From assembly GCA_030835925.1 (NCBI GenBank), contig JAURQW010000023.1:1-45872 (forward strand): 45,872 nucleotides of DNA, written 5' to 3'. The DNA comes from Gammaproteobacteria bacterium (GTDB taxonomy: Bacteria; Pseudomonadota; Gammaproteobacteria; GCA-002705445; GCA-002716945). Below are positions 4,238 to 45,872 of the stretch, piece after piece. A program made the translations under genes and the position numbers. Below the pieces are notes generated by a model. That model was not told where the DNA came from and did not search any database. It saw nothing but the letters and a program-made list of their open reading frames with translations. Numbering within the stretch: the stretch's first letter is position 1; the number at the start of each line of letters is the position of its first letter.

Positions 4238-4321
4238 TGTTACCTCTATTTATTTAAATCTATTGCTTTATTAGTATAATCAAGTAATATTACGCCATTA
4301 TAAACTATTTTAAATAAATAT

Positions 4322-4546
4322 ATGCCAAGTGTACAAATTAGAGAAAATGAGCCATTTGAAATTGCTCTAAGAAGGTTTAAAAGAGGCTGTGAAAAAGCAG
4401 GTATTTTAACAGAGACTCGCAGACGCGAGTTCTATGAAAAACCTACAGCCATGAGAAAAAGAAAAATTGCTGCTGCAACCAAAAGACATAAAAGAAAAGT
4501 AAGTATGTCTGCAATCAGAAAAAAACCTCCATATAAAAAATTCTAA
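4322..4546 (+). CDS. rpsU: 30S ribosomal protein S21
   Basis: S21 is a small basic protein of the 30S platform that helps the subunit engage messenger RNA. The 74 residues match the family throughout ([24 protein letters not shown] near the start), with the basic [14 protein letters not shown] region and a Lys-rich tail. It is divergent from tsaD and is followed after 6 bases by yqeY, as in many proteobacteria. In the classical macromolecular-synthesis operon dnaG would follow soon, but here dnaG is about 9 kb away behind gltD-hemE-aroK-aroB-gltB. TATAAT at 4275-4280 is a candidate -10, with no clear -35. Confidence 0.96.
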
Positions 4547-4552
4547 TCTTTG

Positions 4553-34538: not shown

Positions 34539-35439
34539 ATCTGATTATGACAAAGTTTTCTTAATTGACTCAACGGGTTTTGTACTAAAATACTGGTTCT
34601 CGATGCCACCAGTTGAAACAAAGAACTTTGAGTCAATTTCAGCTTTCTTAGGCTTTAGCAGTTTTGTAATTGGATTATTGAGTAAGTATAAGCCCATATA
34701 CATATCGTTTGCTTTTGATGAAAGTTTAGGGACATGTTTTAGAAATAAAATATATCCTGATTATAAAAAATCTAGGGAAAGTGCTCCAGAAGAATTGAAA
34801 GCTCAATTAACATTATGTAGAGAGTTTCTTGATGTCTTAGGGTTAGACAATAATGCAAGTAACACATATGAGGCTGATGATATCCTATATACTGTCGCAA
34901 AAAATGTTAGAGAATCTGGGTTCAATAGTATAATTCTCACAAATGATAAAGATCTATATCAATTAGTACATCCGGGTGATATTTGGTGGGATTATAAAAG
35001 TAAGATTTTTTACTACGATGGTCTGCTAGACTTCTTAGGCTTTGTTCCACAAAATTTATCTGATTTTTTAGGATTAATGGGTGATTCAGTGGATAACATA
35101 CCAGGCGCTCCTGGGCTAGGAGAAAAAACTGCAATGACATTGATGAGTAGGTATAAAGATTTAGAGAACTTGATGATAAATATTGACTCTATAACGGATC
35201 ATGTTGGGATGAAGTTTAAAAGATTTATCAAAATAATTAAAGAAAATAAAAAAATTATATACCTTTCTAAAAAGTTAGCTACACTAGAGTATGTTGATGA
35301 TCTTAATAATGATTTAAGCTCGTTAAAAAGAGAAACCATAGATTTTAAAAAGCTAGAAGCTTTCTTGATCAAAACAGGAATGAAAGAAGGTCAGAGAAAT
35401 TCTTGGTTAAGAGATATAAAAAAATTAGTTGTACTATAA
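34528..35439 (+). CDS. stand-alone 5'-3' exonuclease (polymerase I N-terminal type)
   Basis: This is a flap/5' nuclease that would remove RNA primers or flaps. Every hallmark of the DNA polymerase I 5'-nuclease domain is present: KVFLIDSTGFVLKYWFS, FRNKIYPDYKKSRESAP, YEADDILYTVA, ILTNDKDLYQLV and LMGDSVDNIPGAPGLGEKTA, holding the metal-binding acidic residues. No polymerase domain follows. The track begins at 34480 within the protease gene. A TTG at 34528 with GGGGAG 10 bases upstream gives MLNKSDYDKVFLID (303 residues) and fits the family better. Size suggests a pol I-type domain rather than ExoIX. Its stop lies one base before the PFK gene. Confidence 0.87.
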   Translation: MLNKSDYDKVFLIDSTGFVLKYWFSMPPVETKNFESISAFLGFSSFVIGLLSKYKPIYISFAFDESLGTCFRNKIYPDYKKSRESAPEELKAQLTLCREFLDVLGLDNNASNTYEADDILYTVAKNVRESGFNSIILTNDKDLYQLVHPGDIWWDYKSKIFYYDGLLDFLGFVPQNLSDFLGLMGDSVDNIPGAPGLGEKTAMTLMSRYKDLENLMINIDSITDHVGMKFKRFIKIIKENKKIIYLSKKLATLEYVDDLNNDLSSLKRETIDFKKLEAFLIKTGMKEGQRNSWLRDIKKLVVL

Positions 35440-35440
35440 T

Positions 35441-36703
35441 ATGAAAAAGAATATTTTTTATGCACAGTCTGGGGGCGTTACACCAGTTATAAATGCAACA
35501 GCTGCAGGTCTAATAGATTATGTCTCTAGAAACAAAGCTTCTTTTGGTAAATTATTTGTAGGTAAAAATGGCATTGCAGGTGCCTTGAATGAAGAACTAA
35601 TTGATATAAGTAAAGAAAAATCTAGCGAGCTGAGGAAACTAGTTCACACACCTGGAGGAGCCTTTGGATCCTGTCGGATTAAACTTCAAGACCCAGTCAA
35701 AAATGAAAAGGAGTTTAGAAGAATACTAGAAGTTTTCAAAGCACATAACATAGGATATTTTTTTTATAATGGTGGTGGAGACTCACAGGATACAACATTA
35801 AAAATCTCTAATTATTGCAAAGCAAATAACTATGATGTTACATGTATTGGGTTGCCTAAAACTATTGATAATGATCTGCCAGTGACTGATAATTGTCCGG
35901 GGTTTGGATCTGTAGCTAAGTATATTGCGACTTCAACATTAGAAGCATCCCTTGATGTAGCCTCTATGGCAAACTCGTCAACAAAAGTTTTTATTTTAGA
36001 AGTAATGGGAAGACATGCTGGCTGGCTGGCAGCATCTGCGGGGGTGATTAAAGAAAATAAAAGCATGCCCCCACACCTTATTCTCTTGCCAGAAGTTATA
36101 TTTGATGAAAAGAAATTTCTTCAAGAAACTAAAACTATAGTAAAGAATTATGGGTATTGCGTAATAGTAGCATCAGAGGGTATAAAGAATAAAAAAAATC
36201 AATTTATAGCTTCGAGTACCTCAAAAGACAGTTTTGGCCATGCACATCTTGGTGGAGTAGCTCCCAAGCTTGCCAATATTATTTCAAATAAATTATCATA
36301 TAAAGTCCACTGGGCTGTAGCTGATTATTTACAAAGAGCTGCTAGGCATCTTGCGTCATCTGTCGATGTCAAACAGGCTTATGCAATTGGCTTTAAAGCT
36401 TTATATTATGCAAAAAAAGGCGTTAATGGCGTTATGTTAACCATAAAAAAGCAAAAAGCAAAAACATATAAATGGGAAATAAAATATACAAAACTACAGA
36501 ATGTTGCAAATTTTGAAAAAGAATTACCAAAAAGCTTTATAACCAAGGATGGTTTTGGCATAACATCTATATGTAAAAATTACATTAAGAACCTTATTTC
36601 TGGTGAGGATTTCCCACCATATAAAAATGGTGTTCCTGTCTATGCCAAATTAAAACTTCCTCTTGTCAAAAAGAAATTAAAGAAATTTAAAGTAAGTCTC
36701 TAA
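35441..36703 (+). CDS. pfp: phosphofructokinase, pyrophosphate-dependent type
   Basis: This enzyme interconverts fructose 6-phosphate and fructose 1,6-bisphosphate. The donor loop reads GGGDSQDTT rather than the GGDGS of ATP enzymes, and the next motif is PKTIDNDLP, where the Lys marks pyrophosphate users (ATP enzymes have GTIDND). EVMGRHAGWLAA gives the sugar-phosphate site. A PPi enzyme is reversible, so it can serve glycolysis, gluconeogenesis or a Calvin-type cycle. The 420 residues start at ATG 35441; the track's TTG four codons earlier overlaps the exonuclease. The 3' end overlaps hemH by 17 bases, convergent. Confidence 0.9.
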   Translation: MKKNIFYAQSGGVTPVINATAAGLIDYVSRNKASFGKLFVGKNGIAGALNEELIDISKEKSSELRKLVHTPGGAFGSCRIKLQDPVKNEKEFRRILEVFKAHNIGYFFYNGGGDSQDTTLKISNYCKANNYDVTCIGLPKTIDNDLPVTDNCPGFGSVAKYIATSTLEASLDVASMANSSTKVFILEVMGRHAGWLAASAGVIKENKSMPPHLILLPEVIFDEKKFLQETKTIVKNYGYCVIVASEGIKNKKNQFIASSTSKDSFGHAHLGGVAPKLANIISNKLSYKVHWAVADYLQRAARHLASSVDVKQAYAIGFKALYYAKKGVNGVMLTIKKQKAKTYKWEIKYTKLQNVANFEKELPKSFITKDGFGITSICKNYIKNLISGEDFPPYKNGVPVYAKLKLPLVKKKLKKFKVSL

Positions 36704-37720: not shown

Positions 37721-38311
37721 CTAAGTCTTTGTGTATCTCTTAAAGATCGGGCTTTTATCTGAAATATGGGATATAAGAAACTCCATTTGATCAGCTAATA
37801 TCTTTCTTCCTCTTAAAATTAAATATTCTACCCTGGATGGCGCAAATGGAATAGCAAGGAGCATCATATTTGCTTTTTCCGGTGTTCTGCCACCTTTCTG
37901 GTTATTACATCGCTTACAAGATGTGACAACATTAGTCCATACATCTAAACCACCATGTGATAGTGGTATAACATGGTCTCTTGATAAATCTTTATAATTA
38001 AAAAACTCACCACAATATAAGCAATTATTAGCATCCCTTTTAAATAATGTTGTATTTGACAAGGAAGGCGTAAAGCTTGAAAAATCCGATTTATTTATAT
38101 CATGTGTAGCAATGATAGAATTCACTTTTAACTTGCTTTTGAGCTGTGTTAGACGGTTATAACCGCCTCTTAAAAGCATAGAACTAGAGCCACACTCATA
38201 GGATACCTGATTTGTATAATACAGCCTAGCTGCTGTTTCATAAGATACCCAAGATACTGGATAACCCGCAGAATTTAACCTAAGTATTTTTTGTTGATTT
38301 GTAAACATCAT
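37721..38311 (-). CDS. HNH endonuclease family protein
   Basis: This 196-residue protein has a clear HNH nuclease domain in its second half. A zinc knuckle CLYCG (about 97-101) and CKRCNNQKGGRTPEKA flank the core SRDHVIPLSHGGLDVWTNVV with its His and Asn residues. The first 90 residues are conserved in chromosomal relatives as an extra domain (VLRLNSAGYPVSWVSYETAARLYY-like, with a WxSY motif). These proteins are widespread single-copy genes, not tied to introns, and their biological role is unclear. Two ATG codons in tandem (38311, 38308) follow a TATAAT by 5 bases. It is divergent from priA across the DnaA-box region. Confidence 0.87.
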   Translation of the reverse strand: MMFTNQQKILRLNSAGYPVSWVSYETAARLYYTNQVSYECGSSSMLLRGGYNRLTQLKSKLKVNSIIATHDINKSDFSSFTPSLSNTTLFKRDANNCLYCGEFFNYKDLSRDHVIPLSHGGLDVWTNVVTSCKRCNNQKGGRTPEKANMMLLAIPFAPSRVEYLILRGRKILADQMEFLISHISDKSPIFKRYTKT

Positions 38312-38316
38312 TACTA

Positions 38317-38322
38317 ATTATA
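38317..38322 (-). promoter_or_regulatory. candidate -10 box of the HNH gene
   Basis: Read on the minus strand this is TATAAT, separated by 5 bases from the first of the tandem ATG codons. Transcription would then begin at or next to the start codon, giving a leaderless message. ATGTTG, a weak -35, lies 17 bases further upstream. Confidence 0.45.
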
Positions 38323-38647
38323 CCCAGTATATTGCTCATCAACATGATAAATAAATTATTATATTAAAAATTGCCTGTTAGTTTAAAAATAAAGGCTATA
38401 AAATCATATATATCTCAGGAAAAACCTAAAATTAGGAGTCAAAATAAAGCTAAAAACATAAATGATGCACTATTTATTAACATACCGATAAAAAATGAAT
38501 AAACAAAACCTTAAAAACAATCAGTGATAAAAAGATATTTATTATCTTTATAAGTTATTGTTATTTATATATATTTACGATTGGTTATAAATTGAACAAT
38601 CTGCCACAGGTAAAATGAGGGAAAGAAAAATCAATAAAAAAGCATAT

Positions 38648-38682
38648 TTATCCACAACTTTATTAACATAAACTGTGGATAA
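38648..38682. promoter_or_regulatory. inverted pair of perfect DnaA boxes
   Basis: TTATCCACA (38648-38656) and TGTGGATAA (38674-38682) are both exact matches to the strongest E. coli DnaA box, in opposite orientation with 17 bases between. With flanking bases the arms extend to TTTATCCACA/TGTGGATAAA. The spacer holds TTATTAACA, a weaker near-match. The pair lies about 65 bases before priA, in the AT-rich gap. DnaA binding is therefore likely; whether the site starts replication or controls priA is open. Confidence 0.7.
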
Positions 38683-38735
38683 AGAAAATCTCGACTAGAA
38701 TACAAGCAAAGATATTAAAAGATTTTACGTGAATG

Positions 38736-38741
38736 TATAAT
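38736..38741 (+). promoter_or_regulatory. candidate -10 box of priA
   Basis: TATAAT lies 5 bases before the priA ATG, so a transcript from it would start at the start codon. It sits 54 bases downstream of the second DnaA box, so bound DnaA could act on it. No clear -35 is seen. Confidence 0.45.
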
Positions 38742-38746
38742 AAATT

Positions 38747-40909
38747 ATGAAAAAGCTGCTAAAAATTGCATTTAACCTGCCTCTCTATAGCACTTACGAT
38801 TATTTAGCTCCAGAATATACTACACATATTAGAATTGGGATGAGAGTTGAGGCGCCTTTTGGAAGAAAAAAATTAATAGGTATAATCAGTGAAATAAATA
38901 ATATAGATATAGCCAATTACAACAAATATAAGTTAAAGACCATATATTCTGTTCTGGATACTAAAGCTATTATAACAAAAGATCTCATGAAAATATGTAA
39001 ATGGGCATCTAATTATTATCAACATCCTCTCGGACAAGTTTACTTCAGTTGTATACCTAGCAAACTCAAGAAGAATAATGTAGTAAATGTAAAAAATAAT
39101 AAAAGTTTTTTTTATGAAACTACGGATAAGAAAAAAGATGACTATTTTAGTAATAAATCTGCACAAAAAAGAATATATGAATTTATAAAAGAAAAAACGA
39201 GAGTAAAGTCAAAAGAAATAAAACAGTCTAATTCATTGAAGCTGTTATTAGATAATGGCTTTGTTAAGAAGAATTACTCTTTTTGTCCGACAAATGCTTC
39301 TCGAGCAGTAAATTTAAATCATGAGCAAACTAAAGCATACCAGGATATAGTCCAAAAAATTAATATGTTTTCTCCAAGCCTGATTGAAGGAGTAACAGGT
39401 AGTGGAAAGACAGAGTTATACATTAAAGTTATAAAAAAAATATTATTGTCGGAAGGCCAGGCATTGGTAATTGTTCCAGAAATAAACCTAATTCCACAGA
39501 TGGTTAAAAGGTTCATAAATTATCTAGATTGTAATATTTCAGAATACCATTCATCAATCTCAGAAAATAATAAATATAATATTTGGAAAGAAAGCGCAGA
39601 TGGAATTATAGATGTAGTTATTGGAACAAGGTCAGCAGTTTTCTTACCTTTTAAAGATCTCAAAATAATTATAATTGATGAAGAACATGATGGGTCGCTT
39701 AAACAATCAGAAAAATTTAGATATCATGCTAGAGATTTGTCACTGGTGAGATCAAAAAACTTAAATATTCCAATATTGATGGGAAGCGCCACTCCCTCTT
39801 TTGAAAGTTTACATAATTGTGAGATAGGGAAGTATAATCATATTGTTCTTAAGAAAAGATTCTTTAATACAAAACTACCTACTGTAAAAGTAGTTGATGT
39901 TAACAAAGATACTATGACTGATGGTTTTTCATCTGAGTTAGTTAGATCTATTAGGAATGAATTATGTTCAAATAAACAAGTTTTATTATTTGTTGGGAGA
40001 AGAGGCTATAGTCATGCCCTATTGTGCAAGATATGTGGCTGGACCTCTAAATGCTACAAATGTGATACTTATATGACATTTCATAAAAATGAAAATATTT
40101 TATGGTGTCATCACTGTGGTTATAAGAAAAAGATCAATATAGACGAAATATGCTCATGCAAAGATAAAAATGCAATAGTGCCGTTAGGAACTGGAACAGA
40201 AAGAGTGGAGACAAAATGTAAGGAACTTTTCCCGCAAGCTAAAGTAATGAGAGTTGACAGTGACACTATAAATAATATTACAAAGTTAAGAGGTTTTATA
40301 AAAAAAACTCAATCTAATGAAATTGATATACTTGTAGGAACTCAAATGTTAACAAAAGGACATGATTTTCCTGAGTTAAATCTCGTTGGTATAATTGATA
40401 TTGACGCTGGTCTTTACAGTCTAGATTTCAGAGGAATAGAGAAAATCGGACAAATGATAATTCAAGTTGCTGGCAGATCAGGAAGACATAATAGTCAAGG
40501 CAAGCTCATCATACAAACTAGGAAGCCAGATAATATTTTAATGAATGAGCTATTAAATAATGGCTATAACAAATTTTATAAAAAAGCCATGCTAGAAAGA
40601 AATCAGTCCTTATTCCCCCCTTACTCATACTTATCATTATTTCGCGTATCTAGTTTGAATAAAAATGAGGGTTTGTCTTTCCTTATGAAAGTTAAAAATA
40701 ACTTTTCAGGAACTATAGTGAACCTGCTAGGACCGGCTCCTGCTCCAATTTTAAAAAAAAATAATAGGTATTATTATCAACTACTTGTAAATGCTAGAAC
40801 CAGAAAATCACTTTTACAGAAATCTTCTGAGATAAGAGAGTATATAATCAAGCAAAAAAAGAGTAATATTAGATGGTCAATAGATATAGACCCTGTCGAC
40901 TTATATTAA
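38747..40909 (+). CDS. priA: primosomal protein N' (replication restart helicase)
   Basis: PriA recognises stalled forks and reloads the replisome. The 720 residues start with the DNA-binding domain (LYSTYDYLAPE, VEAPFGRKKLIGII). The helicase domain follows, with Walker A GVTGSGKTELYIK, Walker B IIIIDEEHDGS, GSATPSFESL and QVAGRSGRH. The zinc-binding insertion has CKICGWTSKCYKCD and CHHCG, but the last pair reads CSCK, with one rather than two residues between the cysteines. Length is close to the usual 730. The gene follows the DnaA-box region, and argS follows after 18 bases, a common gammaproteobacterial pairing. Confidence 0.95.
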   Translation: MKKLLKIAFNLPLYSTYDYLAPEYTTHIRIGMRVEAPFGRKKLIGIISEINNIDIANYNKYKLKTIYSVLDTKAIITKDLMKICKWASNYYQHPLGQVYFSCIPSKLKKNNVVNVKNNKSFFYETTDKKKDDYFSNKSAQKRIYEFIKEKTRVKSKEIKQSNSLKLLLDNGFVKKNYSFCPTNASRAVNLNHEQTKAYQDIVQKINMFSPSLIEGVTGSGKTELYIKVIKKILLSEGQALVIVPEINLIPQMVKRFINYLDCNISEYHSSISENNKYNIWKESADGIIDVVIGTRSAVFLPFKDLKIIIIDEEHDGSLKQSEKFRYHARDLSLVRSKNLNIPILMGSATPSFESLHNCEIGKYNHIVLKKRFFNTKLPTVKVVDVNKDTMTDGFSSELVRSIRNELCSNKQVLLFVGRRGYSHALLCKICGWTSKCYKCDTYMTFHKNENILWCHHCGYKKKINIDEICSCKDKNAIVPLGTGTERVETKCKELFPQAKVMRVDSDTINNITKLRGFIKKTQSNEIDILVGTQMLTKGHDFPELNLVGIIDIDAGLYSLDFRGIEKIGQMIIQVAGRSGRHNSQGKLIIQTRKPDNILMNELLNNGYNKFYKKAMLERNQSLFPPYSYLSLFRVSSLNKNEGLSFLMKVKNNFSGTIVNLLGPAPAPILKKNNRYYYQLLVNARTRKSLLQKSSEIREYIIKQKKSNIRWSIDIDPVDLY

Positions 40910-44608: not shown

Positions 44609-45872
44609 TTATTTTTTTGGGTATACAGATGGAGCAGAATCAAATTGTTTGCTAAATTCTGGATATGCTTCTAAACCACATTCAGAAATATCTACACCTT
44701 CTTCTTCTTCTTGTTCTGTAACTCTTAATCCATATATGCTATGGATAATTTTCCAGATGATGAAACTTGTGATAAAAGTCCATAAGAAAATCACAATTAT
44801 TCCATATAACTGAGCACCTAAGCTTCCACCAGTTAAAGTAACTGCTAACAAGCCCCATATACCTGCAGTTCCATGAGCTGAAATCGCACCCACTGGATCA
44901 TCAATATTCAATTTATCTAGAGTGATGATAGAGAATACAACTATCAGTCCGCCGATAAATCCAATTATAAGAGCTAAGCCAGGTGTAGGCGCCAGTGGCT
45001 CGGCAGTTATAGACACTAATCCAGCAATAGCGCCATTAAGAGCCATTGTTAAATCAGACTTACCAAACATCATTTTTGATAGAATTAATGCACCCATAAC
45101 GCCACCAGCAGCGGCTAAATTTGTATTTACAAATATTAAAGAGACTGCATTAGCTTCAACAACATTTGAAACGATTAATTCAGAACCACCATTAAAACCA
45201 AACCAGCCAAGCCACAAGATGAAAGTACCAAGTGTTGCTAATGGTAAATTAGCTCCAGGCATTGCTTGAGGTTTACCGTCTTTATATTTTCCTTTTCTAG
45301 ATCCTAATACAATTACACCTGCTAGAGCAGCTGCAGCGCCGCAAAGATGTACTACACCAGAACCTGCAAAATCTGAAAAACCAGCAGCATCTAAGAAACC
45401 ACCGCCCCATTTCCAATATCCTTGAACTGGGTATATTATGCTTGTCATAAATACACAGAAAAGAAGAAAAGGCCATAATTTCATACGTTCAGCTACAGCA
45501 CCAGAGATTATTGAACATGCGGTAGCTACAAATACAACCTGAAAAAAATGATCAGACATACCTGAATAATATACATCACCACCGCTACCAACAACCGCTT
45601 CAACTGTATTGTCAGTGCCTAGAAAAAATGAGAGATCCGGTATGATGCCAGATCCTCCGCCAGGATACATAAGATTGTATCCTACCACCATATACATTAT
45701 GCAAGAGATGGAATATAGAGAGATATTTTTTGTTAATATCTCAGCAGTATTTTTAGCTCTTACAAGACCAGCTTCAAGCATTGTGAAACCAGCCGCCATC
45801 CACATGACAAATGCGCCCATTACTAGAAAGTAAAGTGTGTCTAACGCATATGCCAACTCTATGAGTTGTGTT
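44609..45872 (-). CDS. amt: ammonium transporter (5' end outside window)
   Basis: Amt is an inner-membrane channel for ammonium. The fragment of about 420 residues spans helices from LYFLVMGAFVMWMAAGFTMLEAGLVR to a cytosolic tail rich in Glu. Both pore histidines are seen, in VVHLCGAAAALAG and ISAHGTAGIWG, along with the NPMGG-like and WKWGGGFLD stretches. The track's start is a TTG at 45856, but the frame stays open to the window edge (TQLIE precedes LAYALD), so the real start, probably with a signal peptide, lies beyond. The sequence resembles marine proteobacterial Amt types. No glnK is downstream, as the gene ends at the shared terminator. Confidence 0.92.
   Translation of the reverse strand, partial: TQLIELAYALDTLYFLVMGAFVMWMAAGFTMLEAGLVRAKNTAEILTKNISLYSISCIMYMVVGYNLMYPGGGSGIIPDLSFFLGTDNTVEAVVGSGGDVYYSGMSDHFFQVVFVATACSIISGAVAERMKLWPFLLFCVFMTSIIYPVQGYWKWGGGFLDAAGFSDFAGSGVVHLCGAAAALAGVIVLGSRKGKYKDGKPQAMPGANLPLATLGTFILWLGWFGFNGGSELIVSNVVEANAVSLIFVNTNLAAAGGVMGALILSKMMFGKSDLTMALNGAIAGLVSITAEPLAPTPGLALIIGFIGGLIVVFSIITLDKLNIDDPVGAISAHGTAGIWGLLAVTLTGGSLGAQLYGIIVIFLWTFITSFIIWKIIHSIYGLRVTEQEEEEGVDISECGLEAYPEFSKQFDSAPSVYPKK

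Follow-up and report, generated by a model that had tools for sequence, protein, structure and literature searches.

A conserved candidate DARS-type DnaA module upstream of priA in Gammaproteobacteria

In the DARS elements of E. coli, a head-to-head arrangement of DnaA boxes II and I makes ADP-DnaA oligomers release ADP, which allows reloading with ATP. Such elements are known at uvrB (DARS1) and mutH (DARS2), and DARS2 is conserved in close relatives of E. coli (PMC4245941). The core consists of three boxes at a fixed spacing, box I standing opposite to boxes II and III, and the head-to-head II/I pair is a prominent feature of DARS (PMC5742627). DARS1 reads TAATACACA-N3-TTATCCACA-N5-AGTGGATAA, and DARS2 reads TTCTTCACA-N3-CTATCCACA-N5-GGTGAATAA. 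DARS1 lies between bioD and uvrB and overlaps uvrBp3, a promoter of a DNA repair gene that is repressed by DnaA, where mutation of a box derepresses about six-fold (PMC6015884). DARS2, in the rppH-mutH gap, depends on IHF (PMC4245941). Geometry is not sufficient to define a DARS, since box pairs with a similar arrangement number about 52 in E. coli and two of them have been taken up as DARS (PMC5835720). Our literature search, which covered few subscription papers, so that prior notice is possible, returned no paper linking DARS or DnaA to priA, the gene for the replication restart helicase.

Here we describe a DnaA-box array beside priA in a gammaproteobacterial contig of 45,872 nucleotides (the window). 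A sequence-only reading of the window had pointed to two exact TTATCCACA boxes in opposite orientation, 17 bases apart, in an AT-rich gap next to priA, and had proposed either a relocated chromosome origin or a DnaA-controlled switch for the restart helicase gene. Both boxes are where they had been placed, at 38648-38656 (+) and 38674-38682 (-), and the identity of priA is confirmed by TIGR00595 (551.6 bits against a cut-off of 230). The gap between the divergent genes, 38312-38746, spans 435 bp and has 22.5% GC, compared with 31.6% for the whole window. It is the longest gap in the window, but to call it the only long one was a slight overstatement, since a 312-bp gap at 4238-4549 comes next. 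The pair itself is real; a weak box at 38660, a distal box at 38474 and an IHF-like site had been missed. The features of the locus, with distances counted from box III, are as follows.

37721-38311, minus strand: divergent gene for a protein with an HNH endonuclease domain (Pfam HNH_5/HNH)
38474-38482, plus strand: box IV, a distal DnaA-box-like TTATTAACA, at -174
38551-38563, minus strand: IHF-like site TAAGTTATTGTTA, one mismatch from the consensus YAANNNNTTGATW, at -97; predicted binding site
38580-38603, no strand assigned: conserved block ATTGGTTATAAATTGAACAATCTG, from the family alignment
38648-38656, plus strand: core DnaA box III, TTATCCACA, the left box of the exact pair, aligned in 22 genomes
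38660-38668, plus strand: core DnaA box II, a weak TTATTAACA, 3 bp after box III
38674-38682, minus strand: core DnaA box I, TTATCCACA, the right box of the exact pair, facing box II head-to-head over a 5-bp spacer
38736-38741, plus strand: -10-like TATAAT, 5 nt before the priA ATG; putative promoter element
38747-40909, plus strand: priA, replication restart helicase (primosomal protein N'), with Pfam PriA_3primeBD, DEAD, Zn_ribbon_PriA and PriA_C, and TIGR00595

Single TTATNCACA boxes are not enriched, either in the window (three found, 3.3 expected) or genome-wide (41, against 35 for the reversed control). The inverted TTATCCACA pair is not a chance occurrence: it was absent from 100 shuffles and occurs once in the entire 919-kb assembly. 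Within the family, the exact pair is present in 21 of 23 genomes and lies just upstream of priA wherever it could be mapped. Alignment of 22 family regions placed the core upstream of priA in every one and resolved it into three boxes: III at 0 (+), II at +12 (+) and I at +26 (-). The last of these reads TTATCCACA in 20 of the 22 genomes and TTTTCCACA, one base different, in the other two. Box II, weak in the source genome as TTATTAACA, is usually TTATCCACA in the relatives; the source genome combines a strong box III with a weak box II, and genera g5 and g6 mostly show the reverse, or have all boxes strong.

Conservation extends to both sides of the core. Box IV is present in all 22 aligned genomes, at -174/-175 in 15 of them and at -185/-186 in the seven of genus g5. 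The IHF-like site at -97 was found with at most one mismatch in 18 of the 22 (the highest count in shuffles was 4), and a TATAAT or TATACT stands shortly before the priA ATG in all 22, at 28-29, 40-43 or 47-53 bp from the core. The family also has proteins that such an element would use: an IHF-alpha homologue was found in all 12 family genomes searched, the source genome included, as were Hda-like homologues, although with scores below a curated cut-off that only 1 of 14 control genomes passed. The dnaA gene was not found in the source assembly, which is 83% complete, but is present in relatives. Two family DnaA proteins that we checked keep most nucleotide-handling and box-reading residues, with Met in place of Leu290 in G006, the best-assembled relative, whose genome is 99% complete.

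The three-box arrangement at priA matches the DARS core definition given above. Its spacing and orientation are identical to those of DARS1 and DARS2, with two and four mismatches, respectively. When seven E. coli DnaA-binding regions were compared, box I (with one or two mismatches) was found at DARS1 and DARS2 only, and was absent at polA, purH, nrdA, datA and the oriC-dnaA region; thus, the layout is that of a DARS and not of a generic DnaA operator. Like a DARS, the element is intergenic and lies off oriC, between origin and terminus, in G006 about 128 kb from dnaA on an arm of ~545 kb. DARS1 is likewise promoter-linked. It adjoins uvrB and not priA, however, its core faces the opposite way with respect to the gene that follows, a search upstream of it found no IHF-like site, and its weaker boxes are I and III, whereas the weaker box of the source-genome element is II. 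DARS2 is not at priA either, and E. coli has no such element there. Upstream of box III, DARS2 carries further boxes and IHF-like matches, but the latter stand at -87/-71 and not at the -97 predicted for the priA element, and its -185 box is oppositely oriented.

The element is not confined to one family. Allowing up to three mismatches, we found core-type arrays in 139 of the 185 gammaproteobacterial genomes examined, and the reversed control pattern gave none. Among the matches listed, 78 genomes had both a core and priA; in 34 of them the core lay 40-206 bp upstream of priA, and its orientation relative to the gene was identical in all 34. A stricter pattern, core plus box IV, matched 63 genomes with 80 modules between them. 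Of these modules, 32 lie 64-206 bp upstream of priA, all 32 in the same orientation. Examples linked to priA come from Marinicella gelatinilytica, an Alcanivoracaceae MAG, a Lysobacterales MAG, Massilia polaris and a Herminiimonas MAG. Depending on the pattern used, about a third (strict) to three quarters (core alone) of the gammaproteobacterial genomes sampled have the module, in one to three copies per genome.

The outer parts of the module recur together with the core. In other families, TTATNCACA (at most one mismatch) stands between -165 and -193 at all 17 priA-linked cores examined, and at 15 of these cores between -174 and -180. In the strict set the box IV distance was 174-181 bp in 69 of 80 modules, where the search had allowed 164-194 bp. 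Helical phasing of box IV is only suggested by these distances, as too few fall outside the main peak to establish a 10.5-bp period (p about 0.14). An IHF-like site at about -97 was found at 13 of 19 priA-linked loci (0.2 expected) and box IV at 18 of 19 (0.4 expected). Away from priA, 50 of 88 core loci have both the IHF site and box IV. Because it is this common elsewhere, the module is a general DARS-like one, for which priA is a preferred but not the exclusive home. Over 110 core loci, the right-hand neighbour was most often priA (15), followed by proS (11), and the left-hand neighbour was most often hemW (9). We also considered rpmE as the ancestral neighbour and rejected it, since E. coli rpmE matched nothing next to those priA-linked cores that were searched with it.

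Based upon this architecture, we think it rather likely that a DARS-type DnaA module has been built into the promoter region of priA, one that probably recharges DnaA and also regulates priA. ADP-DnaA would bind boxes III, II and I, and the head-to-head contact between II and I would drive the loss of ADP. IHF, by bending the DNA at -97, would draw distal box IV towards the core, comparable to the need for IHF at E. coli DARS2. Since box I stands 53 bp before the TATAAT in the source genome (28-53 bp in the family), bound DnaA would probably affect the transcription of priA as well, most likely by repression, as for DARS1 at uvrBp3. The TATAAT lies so few bases before the priA ATG that the message may be leaderless. 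Initiation and fork restart may in this way share one control element. The weak box II of the source genome counts against a DARS, though this box is strong in most relatives, and the single orientation at priA could reflect one inherited ancestral placement instead of promoter coupling. The earlier proposal of a DnaA-controlled element at priA is borne out in its architecture by conservation upstream of the gene, but the arrangement is that of a DARS and not of a plain operator.

Several other explanations could account for parts of these data. A relocated chromosome origin, the other proposal of the sequence-only reading, would fit an AT-rich gap with DnaA boxes and an IHF-like site. Moreover, the priA site is the strongest consensus-box cluster in the sequences used for GC skew (G006, whose two large contigs were joined by skew; contig C1 of G014; and 400 kb of contig C4 of G007), and no comparable or otherwise strong cluster was found beside dnaA in the relatives examined. 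In G006, few consensus DnaA boxes were seen in the rpmH-dnaA gap (C1:52,731-52,846) and the dnaA-dnaN gap (54,139-54,316). However, the canonical glmS-atp-rsmG-mnmG-mnmE-yidC-rpmH/dnaA-dnaN-recF-gyrB cluster is intact in the relatives, about 125 kb from priA. In G006 the cumulative GC skew has its maximum at 596.6 kb and its minimum at 95 kb, whereas priA lies at 181 kb; around the origin the curve stays flat for about 300 kb. With dnaA at 52.8 kb, the two arms to the skew maximum measure 544 and 547 kb, while an origin at priA would give arms of about 415 and 676 kb. A local skew maximum coincides with priA in all three genomes. The recurrence of the module across the class, at one to three copies per genome, also speaks against an origin. 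On skew and gene synteny together we rejected the origin, which we regard as very improbable.

A purely transcriptional operator, through which DnaA would regulate priA by a double box that has no part in recharging DnaA, is less improbable, though still unlikely. In vivo, E. coli DnaA favours direct pairs 2-3 bp apart, among them those of nrdA, polA and purH, where two direct boxes 3 bp apart lie upstream of a DNA-metabolism gene (PMC11317965); boxes III and II have the same spacing. The closeness of the core to priA, its fixed orientation and the clustering of its distances to the TATAAT point the same way. What an operator leaves unexplained is the inverted box I at +26, which is conserved across the family and is present in DARS1 and DARS2 but absent from the E. 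coli operators, and the occurrence of the module, with IHF site and box IV, beside other genes. A site of the datA or titration type, at which an IHF-dependent DnaA cluster would retain DnaA or hydrolyse DnaA-ATP, appears improbable to us. Like datA, the priA element combines DnaA boxes with an IHF-like site, and its order of distal box, IHF site and boxes recalls the boxes that datA needs on both sides of its IHF site (PMC4585315); in the two large contigs of G006, moreover, no other cluster of consensus boxes is as dense. E. coli datA nevertheless lacks the III-II-I core, and its biochemical effect is the opposite of that of a DARS; the head-to-head II/I pair is a DARS feature (PMC5742627). 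Finally, the 23-bp II/I unit forms a near-perfect palindrome in genus g5, as a site for some unrelated regulator might, but the exact TTATCCACA boxes, the fixed 12- and 14-bp steps, box IV, the recurrence across the class and the absence of control matches make such a palindrome, or chance, scarcely credible.

A DARS-type module at priA would bear on why DARS sites sit where they do and on how widely DnaA is recycled, and suggests that recharging of the initiator is wired together with fork restart. We tentatively propose, as a possibility that goes well beyond the locus itself, that Gammaproteobacteria have an old, hitherto undescribed type of DARS anchored at priA, consisting of box IV, IHF site at -97, core and priA promoter, through which production of the restart helicase is coupled to the regeneration of ATP-DnaA. 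E. coli DARS1 and DARS2 would then be derived forms that lost the anchor, and streamlined marine lineages, that of the source genome among them, would have retained no copy but the one at priA. In the two large contigs of G006 (1.09 Mb), the sole close match to the core is the priA site, and a genome of ~1 Mb with a single candidate offers a minimal system for asking what a DARS is for. The fixed module of four boxes and an IHF site, commonest at priA in our samples, provides a testable rule for locating DARS elsewhere.

Some further observations concern the neighbours of these cores. In other Gammaproteobacteria, the same core adjoins proS (10-34 bp away, convergent), often with IHF site and box IV (L152, L156, L157, L175 and others), or follows hemW, again often with both (L168, L169, L177 and others); these may be further DARS-type sites. 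Exact core-type arrays also turned up in records labelled Halonatronum, Bacilli and Acidaminococcus (L158, L204, L211). At the locus itself, a block ATTGATTATAAA...ACAATTTG at 38580-38603, between the IHF-like site and the core, is kept in the family and is perhaps the promoter of the divergent gene or a site for another protein; a known-RNA search of the whole gap, this block included, gave no Rfam match. The divergent gene, which is also the left neighbour in family loci L163, L171 and L187, encodes a stand-alone protein of 196 aa whose HNH domain resembles that of Cas9/IscB. Elsewhere in the window are genes for an ammonium transporter of the marine subtype (44609-45856, minus strand; TIGR03644) and a diphosphate-dependent phosphofructokinase (35429-36703, plus strand), fitting a marine streamlined gammaproteobacterium.
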